Origin: Gammaproteobacteria bacterium
GTDB taxonomy: Bacteria; Pseudomonadota; Gammaproteobacteria; Steroidobacterales; GCA-2729495
Length of the DNA: 64,000 nucleotides
Direction: 5' to 3'
Assembly (NCBI GenBank): GCA_003695765.1
Contig: RFHQ01000015.1
Coordinates: 1-64,000, forward strand
A program made the translations under genes and the position numbers. The notes under the pieces were generated by a model. It was given only the letters and a program-made list of their open reading frames with translations. It was not told the origin of the DNA and did not search any database. This document shows positions 12,393 to 18,276 of the stretch, one piece after another; position 1 is the stretch's first letter; the number at the start of each line of letters is the position of its first letter.

Positions 12393-13922
12393 ATGAGCAG
12401 CCGACTGGCCGTGGCGGCGAGTTCGTCGCTGGCAGCGGCGGCGGGCGCAGCGATGGCGGAGGCCGGCGGCAATGCCGTGGACGCGGCGCTGGCCGCGATT
12501 CTGGTCGCCGTCAATACCGAGCCGGGTATCTGCTCGCTGGCCTGCGGCGGTTACCTGACGGTGAAGCGGCCGGGACGCGACGCGCTGACCCTCGACGGTT
12601 ACGTGGCCGTGCCCGGGCGCGGCCTGCGCAGGCCGGCCGGCGAACGCCTGGCGATCCCGGTGCACCTGGAATACGGCGGCGGCGTCGACACGGTGATCGG
12701 CCCGGACACGGTCGGCGTGCCGGGTGCGGTCGCGCTGTTCGGCGAGGCATCGCGGGAATACGGTCGAGTGCCGTGGCCGGTGCTGTTCGAGCCGGTGATC
12801 GACTGCACCCGCCGCGGCTTTCCGCTGCCGCCGGCCTCCTACCATTACCTGGAGTACTCGGCGGAACCGATCTTCTGCCGCAGCGAGGACGGGCGCACGG
12901 CTCTGTGCCATCCCGATGGCCGGCTCAAGGAAGCCGGCGAGACGGTCGTCGTGCCGCACCTCGCCGACACCCTGAACCGCATCGCCCGCAACGGCCCGGA
13001 CGAGTTCTACACCGGTGAACTCGGTCGCGGCATCGCCGCCCATGTGCAGGCGGCGGGCGGCCGGCTCAGCGAGGCCGATCTCGCCGCCTACGAAGTGCTG
13101 CCTCGCCCCAGCCTGAAGACCGCCGTCGCCGGCTGGGAGGTCGCGAGCAATCCGCCCCCGGCGATCGGCGGCGCAGTGCTCAGCGCGATGCTGCAGCTGC
13201 TGAGCAGGGAGCCGATACGCGACTGGGACCGCGCCGCGCTCGCACGACTCGTCGACACCCAGCGCGCCGTGCTCGACTATCGCCGGCGGCGGCTGGACGA
13301 CAGCGATTCGCTCGAGGCCGATGCCCGGGCGCTGCTGCGCGCAGCGCTGCGCGGCGAGCTGCCGCGCGCCGGGGAGTCCAGCGCCACCTGCCACGTGTCG
13401 GCCGTCGACGCGGACGGCCTCGCCTGCAGCGTCACCGTGTCGGCTGGCTATGGCTCCGGCGACATGGCGCCCGGCACCGGGATCTGGCTGAACAATTCGC
13501 TGGGCGAGCTGGAATTGAACAAACGCGGCCTGGAGCCGGCGCCGCCCGGCAGCCGCTTGCGCTCGAACATGGCGCCGACAGTGGCGTGGCGGGATGGAGA
13601 ACTGCTGGCGATCGGCTCGCCGGGGGCGGACCGGATCACGACCGCGATCCTGCAAGTGTTGGTCAATCACCTGGTGCTCGGGCAAGCGCTGCAGCAGGCC
13701 GTCGACGCACCCCGCGCGCATGTCGAATTCACCGACGACGGCTGGCGCGTGGCGCACGAACCCGGACTGGCCATCGACGAACTCGGCGTCCCGGCCCGGC
13801 CGTTTCCGTCGCCGTCCATGTTTTTCGGCGGCGTCGGCGCGGCGGCCTGGCACCCGGCGCGGGGCTTTTCCGTCGCCGCGGATCCACGCCGCAGCGGTGG
13901 CACCTGGCACAGCGACGGCTAG
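12393..13922 (+). CDS. Gamma-glutamyltransferase-family Ntn hydrolase
   Basis: Self-processing Ntn hydrolase that in characterised members hydrolyses or transfers gamma-glutamyl groups. The 509-residue protein opens directly in the large-subunit fold (AGGNAVDAALAAILVAVNTEPG), so it has no signal peptide, unlike periplasmic GGT. The predicted cleavage nucleophile is Thr332 in SATCHVSAVD, where classical enzymes have TTHYSVVD. The oxyanion block is GSPGADRI rather than GSPGGSRI, and GIWLNNSLGELE matches the usual NN segment. Substrate is uncertain; a cytoplasmic amide hydrolase is as likely as glutathione cleavage. The next gene starts 2 nt after its stop. Confidence 0.86.
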   Translation: MSSRLAVAASSSLAAAAGAAMAEAGGNAVDAALAAILVAVNTEPGICSLACGGYLTVKRPGRDALTLDGYVAVPGRGLRRPAGERLAIPVHLEYGGGVDTVIGPDTVGVPGAVALFGEASREYGRVPWPVLFEPVIDCTRRGFPLPPASYHYLEYSAEPIFCRSEDGRTALCHPDGRLKEAGETVVVPHLADTLNRIARNGPDEFYTGELGRGIAAHVQAAGGRLSEADLAAYEVLPRPSLKTAVAGWEVASNPPPAIGGAVLSAMLQLLSREPIRDWDRAALARLVDTQRAVLDYRRRRLDDSDSLEADARALLRAALRGELPRAGESSATCHVSAVDADGLACSVTVSAGYGSGDMAPGTGIWLNNSLGELELNKRGLEPAPPGSRLRSNMAPTVAWRDGELLAIGSPGADRITTAILQVLVNHLVLGQALQQAVDAPRAHVEFTDDGWRVAHEPGLAIDELGVPARPFPSPSMFFGGVGAAAWHPARGFSVAADPRRSGGTWHSDG

Positions 13923-13924
13923 TC

Positions 13925-16585
13925 GTGCGCCTGCCCGCGGTGCTCCTGTGCCTGCTGCCTGTGGCTGTCGCCCCGCGCGCGGGCGCCGCTGGCGAACTGA
14001 CGCTGACCGAGGGCACGGCCCTGCACGCCAGCGCCAGCGCCGACGGCCGCCGCATCGCGCTGGACTTGGCCGGACGCATCTGGATCCTCGACCGGAAGCC
14101 GCGGGAGGCCCGCGCGCTGACCGCCGGCACGCAGGTCGCAAGCCGGCCGGCGTTGAGTCCCGACGGGCGGCTGGTCGCCTTCGAGTTCGCCGACCGTGGC
14201 CACCGACAGATCGCGGTCGTGCCGGTGGCCGGCGGGCTGCCGCGGCAGGTCAGTTTCGGCGACTTCGATCATCGCGCGCCGTCCTGGCATCCGGACGGCA
14301 AGCGCCTGCTGCTGTCCTCCGACCGCGGCGGCAGTGAGGACATCTGGGCGCTCGACCTGACCAGCCTCGACTTGGAGCAGCTCAGCTTTGCGCCGGGCGA
14401 CGAGCGGGATCCGGCCTGGGACGACGCCGGCAGGCGGCTCGTGTACGTCGGCGACACGCCGGACGGCGGCGACGGCCTGTACGTCCGCGAGCCCGACGGC
14501 AGGCGGCGCTTGCTGTGGCGCGAGCGTGGCCGCTTGCATGCGCCGGCCTGGCGGCCCGGTGGCGGCCTGATCGCCTACGTGCGGCGGATCGGCGGTCGAG
14601 GCCAGCTCCGGCTGCTGCTGCTGTCCGAGCCGCCGGTCAGCAAGGGCCTGACCCGCCACGAAAACGTGTTTGCGTCACGGCCGTCATGGCAGGGGCCGGA
14701 CCAGCTGATCTACACCGCGGACGGCCGCCTGCGCCGGCGGCACCTCGATCGTTTCGCGGCCGAGGATCTGCCGTTCAACGCCCGGGTCACGGTCCCGGAT
14801 CGGGCACCGGTCTCGCCGGCCCCGGCACCGGCGCCCGACTGGCCCCAGCCGGCGCGCGCCTTCAGCGGTCTGGACGGCGGCAACGGTCGCTGGTACGCAG
14901 GGGCGTTGGGCGCGGTCTGGGCGCTGGATCGGGCGGGTCAGGTCACCCGCCGATTCGGCGTGGTCACGGCCAGCGCCCGGCGGCCGGCGCTGGCACCGGG
15001 ACTGGAGCGGCTGGCCTGGATCAGTGATCACGGCGGCGCGCCCCGGGCTTGGGTCGCCGAGCTCGATCACGGCCCGGAACGCGCCATCGGCAGCCCGGAA
15101 TGGCGCATCAGTGCCATCGCCTGGCGGCCGGACGGCCGCTCGCTCGCCGGCCTGGCGCGGCGGGCCGGGGCGGCACGGCAGTCGGTGCTGCTCTTGGCCA
15201 CCGACGGAACGGCAGCACCGCGACTCATTGCCGGCGGCCTGCGCGGGCTCTCCGGGCTGAGCTGGTCCGGCCCGGACCGGCTGCGGCTGTATCGCGACGT
15301 CGGCTTGCCGGATCTGCTGCTCGGACTCGACGGGCGGCTCGGGGAAGCGGCGCCCGACGGAATGCGCCAGGCCTGCGGCCCCCCGGGCGGCGAATGGCTC
15401 GCCGGTCTCGATGCCGGCGGCCGTCTCCGGCTGCCGGGCACCGGGGCCGACTCGCCGGGGACGGTCGAGGCCTTCGGCTGCACGGCCAGCGGCGGCCTTT
15501 GGTACCAGCGGGACGGCCGCCTGTGGCAGTGGCGGCCCGGTGAGGAAGCGCGCCCGCTGCGCCTGGGGCTGAGCTGGCGACCGGCCGAAGGCCGCGGGCG
15601 CAGGGTGTTGCGGGTCGGCCGGCTCTTCGACGGCCTCGGACCCGGCTACGTCACACAGCGTGACATCGTGATCGAGGACGGCCGCATCGTCGCGATCCAG
15701 CCCTGGCAGGACCCGCCGCCGCCAGGGCGTCTGCTCGATCTCCGCGAACTGACCGCGCTGCCGGGCCTCGTGGACGTCGGCGCCGCGCCAGGGCCGATGG
15801 GCCTCGCCGTCGAGGGCCGGGCCTGGCTCGATGCCGGTGTCACCAGCCTGCGCTATGCGGCGGCCGATCCACGCGGGGTCGCCGAGCGCGCCGAGACCTG
15901 GCGGTCCGGCACGTTGCCCGGCCCGCGCGTCTATTACAGCCCGCCCGCCTGCGCGGCGGCCGGATCCGTCTCGGCCGCAGCGCGCCTCGCCGGCTACCGC
16001 CTTTGCGAAGCTGCGGACCGCGGCTGGCCTGCGCAGATCGCCGACGCGCATGCGCTCGGCCAGCCGGCGATCGCGACCCGGCCGTTTCCGGCCCTGCTGC
16101 TGCCGATCGACGAGCTCTGGCTGGCCGGCCAGTCGGGGGTCTACGGCGACATCATCGATCTGGCCGGCGCGCGTAGCCTGCGCCTGGCTTCCCGCCTGAC
16201 GGCCTTGCTGCCCCCGCCGCCGCAGGCGCCCTCGGCCATCGAGCGGGCCCAAGCGCGGGCGCGGGCGCAGGCCCTGTTTCGCGCCGCGGGCCGCGGGGCG
16301 CGGATCCTGCCGGCAGCCGACGGGCGCCGCTGGCCACCCGGGCTTGGTTTGCGTCGGGAACTGCAGGCGCTGGTCGACAGCGGCTTGCAGCCTTTCGAGG
16401 TATTGCGCATGGCCACGCGAGACGCAGCGCAGGCGCTCGCGGCAGGCCGCGGGCTTGGCGAACTGCGCCCCGGTGCTCGGGCCGACCTGCTGCTCGTGGC
16501 CGGCGACCCGCTGGCGGACATCGAGGCCGCGACGCACCCGGCACTGGTGCTGCTCGGCGGCCGCGAATACCGCCCGGGCCGCTGA
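13925..16585 (+). CDS. Secreted TolB-like beta-propeller fused to a degenerate amidohydrolase domain
   Basis: The 886-residue product starts at a GTG with a clear signal peptide (RLPAVLLCLLPVAVAPRAGA). Residues ~25-540 are WD40/TolB-type PD40 repeats (SPDGRLVAFEF, SWHPDGKRLLLSSDRGGSEDIWALDL, ALAPGLERLAWISD). From ~555 it resembles the amidohydrolase superfamily (GRLFDGLGPGYVTQRDIVIEDGRI; ending LGELRPGARADLLLVAGDPL). The metal-binding HxH that should follow PGLVDV is replaced by GAA (residues 619-621), and the later ligand histidines also seem absent, so hydrolase activity is doubtful. Related two-domain proteins are secreted or periplasmic. It is 2 nt downstream of the GGT-like gene and likely in the same transcript. 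Confidence 0.88.
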   Translation: MRLPAVLLCLLPVAVAPRAGAAGELTLTEGTALHASASADGRRIALDLAGRIWILDRKPREARALTAGTQVASRPALSPDGRLVAFEFADRGHRQIAVVPVAGGLPRQVSFGDFDHRAPSWHPDGKRLLLSSDRGGSEDIWALDLTSLDLEQLSFAPGDERDPAWDDAGRRLVYVGDTPDGGDGLYVREPDGRRRLLWRERGRLHAPAWRPGGGLIAYVRRIGGRGQLRLLLLSEPPVSKGLTRHENVFASRPSWQGPDQLIYTADGRLRRRHLDRFAAEDLPFNARVTVPDRAPVSPAPAPAPDWPQPARAFSGLDGGNGRWYAGALGAVWALDRAGQVTRRFGVVTASARRPALAPGLERLAWISDHGGAPRAWVAELDHGPERAIGSPEWRISAIAWRPDGRSLAGLARRAGAARQSVLLLATDGTAAPRLIAGGLRGLSGLSWSGPDRLRLYRDVGLPDLLLGLDGRLGEAAPDGMRQACGPPGGEWLAGLDAGGRLRLPGTGADSPGTVEAFGCTASGGLWYQRDGRLWQWRPGEEARPLRLGLSWRPAEGRGRRVLRVGRLFDGLGPGYVTQRDIVIEDGRIVAIQPWQDPPPPGRLLDLRELTALPGLVDVGAAPGPMGLAVEGRAWLDAGVTSLRYAAADPRGVAERAETWRSGTLPGPRVYYSPPACAAAGSVSAAARLAGYRLCEAADRGWPAQIADAHALGQPAIATRPFPALLLPIDELWLAGQSGVYGDIIDLAGARSLRLASRLTALLPPPPQAPSAIERAQARARAQALFRAAGRGARILPAADGRRWPPGLGLRRELQALVDSGLQPFEVLRMATRDAAQALAAGRGLGELRPGARADLLLVAGDPLADIEAATHPALVLLGGREYRPGR

Positions 16586-16606: not shown

Positions 16607-16849
16607 TTTACAGGCGCGAACCGGCGAACTTTGTAAAAACGGCGGCTTGCGATCGATTCGGATCCGCCGGTCCGGCGCCCCGATACCGCGAAAATCCGTG
16701 AAGGGCGCGATGGAACTGCCTGTCGCGGCGCGGCCTTCGCCGGGACGGCCGCCCGTCGGTGGCCGGCGGCCCTGTCGGGTTCCTTTACAATCTGGCGCCA
16801 GTTACGCAGAAACCGCTGACCATTGGAGCCATTAACTACTGAATTTACG
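16607..16849 (+). promoter_or_regulatory. Candidate activator-binding half-sites upstream of the sigma-54 promoter
   Basis: The non-coding stretch 16586-16863 has no supported gene. It holds TTTACA (16607-16612) and its inverted partner TGTAAA (16632-16637), 19 bp apart and about 255-285 bp upstream of the predicted start, then TTTACA (16784-16789), GTTACG (16801-16806) and TTTACG (16844-16849). Sigma-54 promoters need a distal enhancer-bound activator, and these repeats could be its sites. They are short and the assignment is inference only. Confidence 0.35.
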
Positions 16850-16863
16850 CTGATTCGCGGCAG

Positions 16864-16880
16864 TTGGCACGCAGGTTGCA
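16864..16880 (+). promoter_or_regulatory. Sigma-54 (RpoN) promoter
   Basis: TTGGCACGCAGGTTGCA matches the -24/-12 consensus TGGCACG-N4-TTGCW at every consensus base, with the required 10-bp spacing from GG (16866-16867) to GC (16878-16879). The start site should be about 12 nt after the -12 C, near 16891. No credible coding region begins downstream; instead an A-rich RNA and a terminator follow. In pseudomonads, CrcZ and CrcY are likewise driven by RpoN with the activator CbrB. Confidence 0.85.
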
Positions 16881-16890
16881 GGTAAACACT

Positions 16891-17119
16891 GCGCACAAAA
16901 AAAGGTTACTGCAGGCGGTGGCGCTATTCGACATCTGCAAACAGACATCGAAGCCAGAAGACGCTCGCAACGAGAAGAACAAGAACCAGAAGAAGAAGCA
17001 GAGGCAGCGACAGCACAACAACGACAACAACCCAGCGATGCCACGCCGCTGACGCCGTAACCGAATTCGCGACAACAACAATAACCCGTATACCCCGCCT
17101 CCCTAGCGGGGTTTTTTTT
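16891..17119 (+). ncRNA. AAN-rich sigma-54-dependent small RNA, CrcZ/CrcY-like
   Basis: Predicted transcript of about 230 nt running from the sigma-54 start to the terminator. It contains AAN-triplet runs of the type bound by the distal face of Hfq: AAGAACAAGAAC (16975-16986), AAGAAGAAG (16990-16998), AACAAC and ACAACAAC (17017-17031) and AACAACAATAAC (17074-17085), plus A7 near the 5' end. The last run is the kind of catabolite-activity motif repeated in CrcZ. The base composition is unlike the flanking GC-rich genes. Short frames across it (62 aa plus strand, 78 aa minus strand) lack support: the plus one would start inside the promoter. Role as an Hfq sponge in carbon catabolite control is inference. 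Confidence 0.75.
17093..17119 (+). terminator. Rho-independent terminator of the small RNA
   Basis: CCCCGC (17093-17098) pairs with GCGGGG (17106-17111) around the 7-nt loop CTCCCTA, followed at once by eight T residues (17112-17119). This is a strong intrinsic terminator in the plus direction and marks the 3' end of the small RNA; it lies 44 bp upstream of the BtuD-like gene, which therefore needs its own promoter. Confidence 0.95.
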
Positions 17120-17163: not shown

Positions 17164-17970
17164 ATGACCGGCTCGGCAGACAGCGGATCATGCGTGCTCG
17201 AGGCCCGCGGACTGTGCGTGGAGGCTGCCGGACGGCGGCTGGTCAGCGATCTGGACTTCTCGCTGCACGCCGGCGACTTCGTCTGCCTGCTCGGCCCGAA
17301 CGGCGTAGGCAAGACGCTGAGCCTGCACACGCTGGCCGGCCTGCGCGCGCCGGCGGCCGGCCGCGTGTCGTTGCTGGGCCGGCCGCTGGAGCGGCTCGAC
17401 CGGCGGCAGATCGCCCGACAGCTCGGCTTGCTGTTGCAGCACCACGAGGACGCCTTTCCGGCCACGGTGCTCGAGACCGCCTTGCTGGGCCGCCACGCTC
17501 ATCTGGGCTTTCTGGAATGGGAGCGCAGCGCCGACCTGGCGCTGGCGCGCGCGGCGCTCGCGCGCGTCGACCTGGCCGGGCTGGAGCAGCGCCCTGCACA
17601 GCAGCTCTCCGGAGGTGAACGCCGCCGGCTCGCGGTGGCGACGCTGATGGTCCAGGATCCGCTGATCCTGCTGCTGGACGAGCCGCTGAACCACCTGGAT
17701 CCGGCGCACCGCTTCCTGGTACTGGACACGCTGGCCGCGCTGGCGGCCGAAGGCCGGGCGATCGTCGCCAGCCTGCACGACCCGGCGCTGGCCGCGCACT
17801 ACGCGAGCAGCGTGCTGCTGCTGTACGGCGACGGGCGCTGGCAGGCCGGCCCGGCGGCCGAACTGCTGACCGCCGAGCGCATGAGCGCGTTGTACCAGAC
17901 CGCGTTTGCCAGCTATCGCCGGGGCGACGAAGAACTGCTGATCCCGGTGCCCACCCGGCCGGCTGCTTGA
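17164..17970 (+). CDS. btuD: ABC transporter ATP-binding protein, BtuD/FecE-like
   Basis: Cytoplasmic ATPase of a cobalamin or siderophore importer. The 268-residue protein has Walker A GPNGVGKT, Q-loop in LGLLLQHHED, signature LSGGERRR, Walker B ILLLDEP, the D-loop NHLDP and switch histidine in SLHDPAL, the usual order for FecCD-type importers. The cobalamin riboswitch and btuB that follow support a role as BtuD with the BtuC-like permease at 10179 and BtuF at 20835. It sits upstream of the riboswitch and so is not obviously under its control. Specificity for B12 is inferred from neighbours. Confidence 0.88.
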   Translation: MTGSADSGSCVLEARGLCVEAAGRRLVSDLDFSLHAGDFVCLLGPNGVGKTLSLHTLAGLRAPAAGRVSLLGRPLERLDRRQIARQLGLLLQHHEDAFPATVLETALLGRHAHLGFLEWERSADLALARAALARVDLAGLEQRPAQQLSGGERRRLAVATLMVQDPLILLLDEPLNHLDPAHRFLVLDTLAALAAEGRAIVASLHDPALAAHYASSVLLLYGDGRWQAGPAAELLTAERMSALYQTAFASYRRGDEELLIPVPTRPAA

Positions 17971-17998
17971 CAGCGAAATTCGCTCCCGCCTAAAGTCG

Positions 17999-18214
17999 CC
18001 GCTCGCCTGGTGTTCCCGGACGGCGGTCCGGGATAACGGGAAGCCGGTGAAGCAGGTCGCAAGAACCCGCCATTCCGGCGCTGCCCCCGCAACGGTGAAC
18101 GAGTCAAACCGGTTCAGCGCGTCCGCCCGGACGCGCGGCCACTGCGCAAACGCGTGGGAAGGCGAACCGGTGGGGAACACGCGGTTCCCGCTCGCAAGCC
18201 CGGAGACCGGCCGG
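17999..18214 (+). promoter_or_regulatory. Cobalamin (adenosylcobalamin-type) riboswitch
   Basis: The btuB leader shows the conserved cobalamin-aptamer elements in order: GGGAAGCCGGTGAAGC-type block (18048 onward), GAACCCGCC then GCTGCCCCCGCAACGGTGA (18080-18098), and the B12 box GCGGCCACTGCG (18135-18146), closing with GCCCGGAGACCGGCC (18198-18212). Binding of adenosylcobalamin normally represses the downstream transport gene. Boundaries are estimated from these motifs. Control extends to btuB and probably to the adenosyltransferase gene after it. Confidence 0.94.
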
Positions 18215-18276
18215 CGATGGGATCAGGGTGCGGAGGGCGCCTGGCGGGCCATCCCGGCGCAGCCAGTTCAGCTCTC

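Follow-up and report, generated by a model that had tools for sequence, protein, structure and literature searches.

A predicted σ54-dependent, ARN-rich small RNA gene downstream of a PEP-CTERM box in uncultured Gammaproteobacteria

The DNA described here, referred to as the window, is a stretch of 64,000 nucleotides from a gammaproteobacterial MAG (G000). Between a beta-propeller/amidohydrolase gene and the gene of an ABC-transporter ATPase it contains a gap to which the original prediction assigned a small RNA resembling CrcZ and CrcY. Both neighbouring genes lie outside the sRNA unit. The upstream one serves as a synteny anchor, and the downstream one is missing or displaced in several homologous loci. 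The features of the locus are as follows.

13919 to 16585, forward strand: beta-propeller/amidohydrolase gene (PF07676, PF01979), upstream neighbour
16773 to 16789, forward strand: PEP-CTERM box with the sequence TGTCGGGTTCCTTTACA, predicted to be the PrsR enhancer and lying 75 nt before the -24 element
16830 to 16845, forward strand: conserved IHF-like A/T element, a putative IHF site located between the enhancer and the promoter; its sequence is degenerate in the window
16864 to 16880, forward strand: σ54 (RpoN) -24/-12 promoter, TTGGCACGCAGGTTGCA
16891 to 17119, forward strand: predicted sRNA, about 229 nt, with its start placed from the promoter
16904 to 16909, forward strand: 5′ strand of stem P1, GGTTAC, pairing with 17057 to 17062
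16927 to 16952, forward strand: hairpin P2, TTCGACATCTG-loop-CAGACATCGAA
16953 to 16964, forward strand: conserved single-stranded element GCCAGAAGACGC, a candidate base-pairing seed
16975 to 17002, forward strand: ARN tracts 1 and 2, AAGAACAAGAAC and AGAAGAAGAAGCAGA, predicted Hfq distal-face sites
17017 to 17031, forward strand: AAC-rich tract 3, AACAACGACAACAAC, seen in the sequence and the alignment
17057 to 17062, forward strand: 3′ strand of stem P1, GTAACC, partner of 16904 to 16909
17068 to 17089, forward strand: near-invariant CGCGACAACAACAATAACCCGT, including ARN tract AACAACAATAAC, kept in nearly all family loci
17093 to 17119, forward strand: intrinsic terminator, CCCCGC-loop-GCGGGG-T8
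17164 to 17970, forward strand: ABC-transporter ATPase gene (PF00005), downstream neighbour

Elsewhere, the window carries a partial 16S rRNA gene (RF00177, 1-366, reverse strand), which lies at its start and is truncated at its 3′ end, and a cobalamin riboswitch (RF00174, 79.5 bits, 17990-18229, forward strand) located 5′ of an ORF resembling TonB-dependent receptors and of a gene for a cobalamin adenosyltransferase. The riboswitch is unrelated to the sRNA.

The pattern TTGGCACN5TTGCW has a single exact match within the 64 kb, which is TTGGCACGCAGGTTGCA at 16864-16880 on the forward strand. When two mismatches are permitted, the window has 5 matches against 5.5 expected. Since mismatch-tolerant matches are at the chance level, the promoter hexamers alone are inconclusive, and it is the comparison with related loci that decides. 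The -24/-12 form [T/C]GGCA[C/T]-N5-TTGC[A/T] is present in all 30 aligned loci, and rpoN is encoded in the window's own MAG. The hexamer GCGCAC begins at 16891, 3′ of the promoter, and the block from GCGCAC to T8 is conserved in the family loci. At the other end of the unit, the terminator stem and its T8 run end at 17119, with the GGGG and the T8 invariant in 30 loci. The σ54 promoter, the strong T8 terminator, the AAN-triplet runs and the gap without a gene, all four of which the original prediction had read from this one sequence, are thus borne out.

Homologues of the sRNA are found by BLAST in 30 of 37 same-family genomes and in none of 23 genomes from other families of the order. The original prediction would have been contradicted by absence from close relatives, and the sRNA is present in them; it had also proposed a covariance or motif search in related genomes. 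The covariance model, run over 396 genomes of the order, reaches E<1e-19 in 32 of the 40 family genomes. Family f7 adds more than 50 genomes with full-length but weaker matches (E<1e-5, about 1e-6 to 1e-12), and in all, distant homologues occur in at least two families besides the window's own. A 22-nt core pattern with one free base is exact in 26 contigs, all of them MAGs, labelled mostly as Gammaproteobacteria, Pseudomonadota or Chromatiales. Phage sequences give no match to the sRNA stretch.

Within the 30 aligned copies, CGCGACAACAACAAUAACCCGU is near-invariant and the 5′ end, GCGCACAAAAAAGGTT, is retained in most; in family f1 the 5′ end is near-invariant. The hairpin TTCGACATCTG...CAGACATCGAA, the element GCCAGAAGA, the A-rich tracts and CGCGACAACAACAATAACCCGT are also kept in most copies. 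The copies in f7, together with two in f6 (L178 and L179), retain the upstream box, the σ54 promoter, the A-A-N tracts and the terminator. In f7, GACGCCAGAAGAA is retained and the closing stem has another sequence, GTAACTG/CAGTTAC. In families f1, f6 and f7 alike, the sRNA follows the amidohydrolase gene, a shared neighbourhood that speaks for orthology of the loci. The downstream gene varies: amidase or methyltransferase-like lipoprotein genes are found in f7, and other genes in f6 and at L010, L023 and L024. One f6 genome (G155, locus L185) has a homologous A-rich RNA adjoining the same amidohydrolase gene, with no recognisable σ54 promoter or PEP-CTERM box at the locus. The promoter appears to have been replaced or lost there, and since at least this one distant homologue has no recognisable σ54 promoter, the RNA can probably exist outside the PrsR/σ54 circuit.

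No conserved reading frame or start codon is found among the homologous loci, and neither the longest frames nor the ATGs in the gap are conserved. A small protein gene, in which the A-rich codons could encode Lys and Asn, was rejected on the grounds that indels fall out of frame, many copies have an in-frame TAG in the AAN phase and no start is conserved. Since there is no conserved frame and the downstream gene changes, the RNA is best regarded as an independent sRNA, with its own promoter and terminator, a conserved structure and no fixed downstream gene. The conservation in 30 loci makes a chance origin untenable, and compensatory changes in the stem and conservation across families likewise speak against A-rich intergenic DNA; it is exceedingly improbable that the locus is either such DNA or a small protein gene. 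Judged from comparative genomics, the locus is almost certainly a real sRNA gene, widely conserved in uncultured Gammaproteobacteria.

The RNA is closed by the long-range stem P1. Of its six pairs, three have changed on both strands, and 97.7% of cells are paired. The hairpin P2 is weaker, with 88-90% of cells paired and one covarying pair per half. Taken as a whole, the 15-pair structure is equalled by none of 500 shuffles and beats every slid control. In the MAFFT alignment the terminator region is misaligned and RNAalifold mispairs it as a result, so P1 and P2 were evaluated with a hand-written structure. Since the single-sequence folding z-score of the window sRNA is only -1.76, the structural evidence comes from comparison and not from energy.

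The RNA is rich in A-R-N triplets. The window has three strict (ARN)n tracts with n≥4, AAGAACAAGAAC, AGAAGAAGAAGCAGA and AACAACAATAAC, in addition to AACAACGACAACAAC, and the homologues have two to four strict tracts each. There are 16 ARN triplets in the window transcript, compared with 5.3 in dinucleotide shuffles; across the loci, each transcript has 15-26 triplets in runs of at least three, compared with about 5-11 in shuffles. Nearly every locus exceeds at least 98% of its own shuffles in ARN content, the exception being L025 (p=0.09). In the aligned A-A-N triplets both A's tend to be preserved and the third position varies among all four bases, as would be expected if the tracts are read by the distal face of Hfq. 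An hfq gene is present in all family genomes examined, and the Hfq of the window's MAG carries the distal-face segment SIYLVNGIKLQG with an intact motif, which includes residues known for distal-face binding. Class II sRNAs engage Hfq through ARN motifs and a U tail, and the corresponding elements, an Hfq with an ARN-reading distal face, ARN motifs and a terminator U tail, are all found here. It is therefore quite probable that the sRNA binds Hfq.

The PEP-CTERM mRNAs are not obvious partners in such a system. ARN tracts near the start codon occur in 24% of them and in 18% of controls (n=45 and 68), which is not an enrichment, so that direct Hfq titration from these mRNAs through start-codon tracts was rejected. 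At the 3′ ends of PEP-CTERM mRNAs, ARN tracts are mildly enriched (29% and 16% of controls). At one locus (L186 in G038), GGATAACAACAAGAAACC stands right before the terminator of a PEP-CTERM gene, giving it a 3′ end that resembles that of the sRNA.

An invariant 17-nt element, TGTCG-N7-TTACA, which was overlooked in the original prediction, is located 5′ of the promoter. In ungapped, promoter-anchored columns, GTCG-N7-T[T/G]AC[A/G] is present in 30 of 30 loci; its distance to the -24 box downstream is 75 nt, or 74 nt in two loci. The PEP-CTERM box is a 17-nt motif 1 ending in TTTACA, followed by a spacer of 62.8 ± 10.6 nt (32-92) and a σ54 motif (Haft 2006; PMC1569441). This arrangement is found upstream of PEP-CTERM genes and is phylogenetically tied to PrsR, PrsK and PrsT (PMC1569441); pepA of Aquincola, in particular, is RpoN-dependent and carries a predicted enhancer (PMC9850573). 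The box in the window, TGTCGGGTTCCTTTACA, with its spacer of 75 nt, agrees with the published definition. CbrB, the activator of the Crc RNAs, recognises TGTTAC/GTAACA subsites (PMC6296734). Because the upstream site is a PEP-CTERM box and not a CbrB site, it suggests control by PrsK/PrsR and a place in the exosortase/PEP-CTERM regulon, and the link to carbon catabolite repression that had been drawn from the resemblance to CrcZ is not sustained.

In most family genomes the box and σ54 pattern occurs once, at the sRNA, and a reversed control pattern has no matches. Eight extra matches in four family genomes all precede secreted proteins of the PEP-CTERM or VPLPA-CTERM type, seven of them above the NCBIfam cut-off; with strict patterns, none was seen before PEP-CTERM genes in the window's own genus. 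Above the TIGR02915 cut-off, PrsR is found in most of the family's genomes, the four of the same genus (G001-G004) among them, and in the complete same-genus genome G001 it is adjoined by PrsK. No PrsR above the cut-off of 502.6 bits was found in the window's MAG, which is 92% complete and has a best score of 350 bits, or in G010 (98% complete) and G017 (94%), two genomes in which the sRNA is preceded by a variant box. This variant, TGTCG-N7-TGACA, is present at L027 (G017), L028 (G010), L017 and L019. In G010 and G017, the variant box together with the lack of a PrsR match above cut-off suggests that another activator may serve the sRNA. Overall, the sRNA is very likely to be under the control of the PEP-CTERM box and PrsR, with dependence on PrsR and RpoN deduced from these elements.

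Between the box and the promoter, the IHF-like pattern YAANNNNYTR is found at this position in 16 of 30 loci, compared with 2 and 0 in two control windows, and columns -32, -31, -25 and -24 of this region are conserved. The spacers between box and -24 element (L071, L079-L085 and L188-L265) cluster at about 53, 61-66, 73-76 and 83-86 nt, in steps of about one helical turn, with the classes of downstream genes assigned only roughly.

These features suggest how the unit might work. When PrsK/PrsR is active, phosphorylated PrsR would occupy the PEP-CTERM box, some 100 nt upstream, and IHF-like bending would help it to activate σ54 polymerase at the -24/-12 promoter. The transcript, about 230 nt long, would fold through the long-range stem and the 5′ hairpin, leaving the A-R-N tracts and the U-rich 3′ end exposed. 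Hfq would then be bound at its distal face by the ARN tracts and at its proximal face by the U tail. Made alongside PEP-CTERM surface proteins, the RNA would relieve or re-set the Hfq-dependent control of other mRNAs. Such decoy action is favoured by the number and persistence of the ARN tracts, whereas the conserved elements outside them (GCCAGAAGACGC and the 5′ GCGCAC) exceed what a pure decoy needs. There is perhaps an even chance that the main role of this sRNA of the PEP-CTERM/exosortase regulon is that of a CrcZ-like Hfq decoy.

The same surplus of conserved elements gives some weight to a base-pairing sRNA of class II, similar to ChiX or MgrR, in which the ARN motifs and U tail load Hfq, as they do in that class, and GCCAGAAGACGC or the 5′ GCGCACAAAAAAGG pairs with mRNAs, perhaps those of surface or matrix genes. 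A seed is favoured by GCCAGAAGA, which is retained in most f1 loci, in f7 and also in the G006 copy, which diverges elsewhere, and the near-invariant 5′ end in f1 could serve the same role. Yet two to four tracts of at least four triplets, with 15-26 ARN triplets in all, are a surplus for a single Hfq hexamer, and base pairing as the main activity is a possibility to be entertained with some reserve.

Two further readings are improbable. The RNA could be the 5′ leader or attenuator of the ABC-transporter gene, with the σ54 promoter serving that gene and the hairpin acting as a regulated terminator, since the ATPase starts 45 nt past the T8 on the same strand and follows the RNA in most f1 loci. 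However, with only the amidohydrolase gene upstream constant and the downstream gene differing in f6, f7 and the three loci named above, this reading was rejected; the T8 and the stem are, moreover, invariant, and no conserved alternative pairing was noticed in them. It is similarly doubtful that the RNA is a sponge for a G/U-rich sRNA or for an ARN-reading protein other than Hfq. Its CA-rich tracts resemble the targets of GcvB-like RNAs, and among the sub-threshold Rfam matches in the window AgvB (Anti-GcvB) scores highest, but this match (25.7 bits, gathering threshold 56) is far under the threshold and owes much to the terminator, and the free variation of N in A-A-N fits reading by Hfq better than base pairing.

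The combination of box, σ54 promoter and noncoding RNA considered here as an Hfq decoy may extend beyond the order. In a scan of 370 genomes of the class, the box and σ54 pattern has matches in 45, many of which precede PEP-CTERM genes. At five loci in other gammaproteobacterial orders (L218, L219, L257, L258 and L262), it precedes ARN-bearing noncoding stretches with a spacer of 74-76 nt. All five are convergent with and adjoin the end of an Ffh-like gene, and four have a terminator detected by the scan; L218 and L219 also have a RimM-like frame nearby. These units may be analogues or distant homologues of the sRNA, possibly an independent sRNA family. In family f4, locus L206 (G039) has a box and σ54 promoter followed by a noncoding unit of about 170 nt with AACAATAATAATAAT, AACAACAACCC and a GC stem-T8, upstream of an aspartokinase-like gene.

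It is tempting to suggest, though with less than even confidence, that the PEP-CTERM/exosortase regulon has an RNA arm, in which PrsK/PrsR also drives an ARN-rich, Hfq-titrating RNA, with similar units next to the Ffh-like gene in other orders, and that CrcZ is one of several independent inventions combining an NtrC-type regulator, σ54 and an Hfq decoy. If so, floc- and biofilm-forming environmental bacteria would couple their exosortase-anchored surface proteins to global post-transcriptional control, and the poorly understood PrsK/PrsR system would gain a second kind of output. As a structured and conserved sRNA family, the RNA is a candidate for a new Rfam entry.

Several known systems share parts of this design. 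GlmY and GlmZ of Enterobacteria have a σ54 promoter, the NtrC-family two-component activator GlrR (QseF), an upstream dyad of the TGT...ACA type and an sRNA product, all of which have counterparts here, the control in the present case being predicted. The GlrR site, TGTC-N10-GACA, has a spacing unlike that of the PEP-CTERM box, and GlmY and GlmZ are not ARN-rich and act via RapZ and glmS; the Rfam models of GlmY and GlmZ give no match in the window or the homologues. The PEP-CTERM box/PrsK-PrsR regulon, known from PepA of Zoogloea and Aquincola, shares with the sRNA locus the 17-nt motif that ends in TTTACA, the σ54 motif and a spacer within the published range. Its published members are protein genes, whereas the product here is a noncoding RNA, and a literature search found no link between PEP-CTERM and sRNA or Hfq in this sense.

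The closest parallel in design is with CrcZ, CrcY and CrcX of Pseudomonas and Azotobacter, which have an intergenic σ54 promoter, an NtrC-family two-component activator and help from IHF (PMC4063720, PMC6296734, PMC8871633), features that are predicted here. In P. aeruginosa, CrcZ binds and titrates Hfq through its six (ARN)n tracts (PMC4063720); the sRNA likewise has several tracts at n≥4, a terminator, an Hfq in the genome and predicted occupancy of the Hfq distal face. CrcZ with cbrAB has been described in Pseudomonadaceae only (PMC8871633), and the literature found on σ54-driven Hfq-titrating decoys covers only that family and carbon catabolite control. Searched up to E=10, the CrcZ model RF01675 (gathering threshold 95 bits) finds nothing in the window. 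In 60 relatives it has three sub-threshold matches (19.6-22.9 bits), none at the sRNA, and its scores of 24.6 and 27.5 bits with two f7 homologues are sub-threshold and were not reproduced on a shorter stretch. The sRNA is about 230 nt long, compared with 407 in CrcZ, and contains a covarying long-range stem unlike CrcZ; it has a PEP-CTERM box in place of CbrB subsites, and it lies between amidohydrolase and ABC ATPase genes, while CrcZ lies beside or downstream of cbrB. Its regulon would be one of surface and matrix, in contrast to carbon catabolite control. Membership of the CrcZ family was therefore rejected, since RF01675 is unmatched at the locus and the activator site and neighbours differ. 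What holds of the proposed CrcZ/CrcY-like RNA outside Pseudomonas is a conserved, σ54-driven, AAN-rich and terminator-ended sRNA, which differs from CrcZ in sequence, activator and locus but plausibly works like it.
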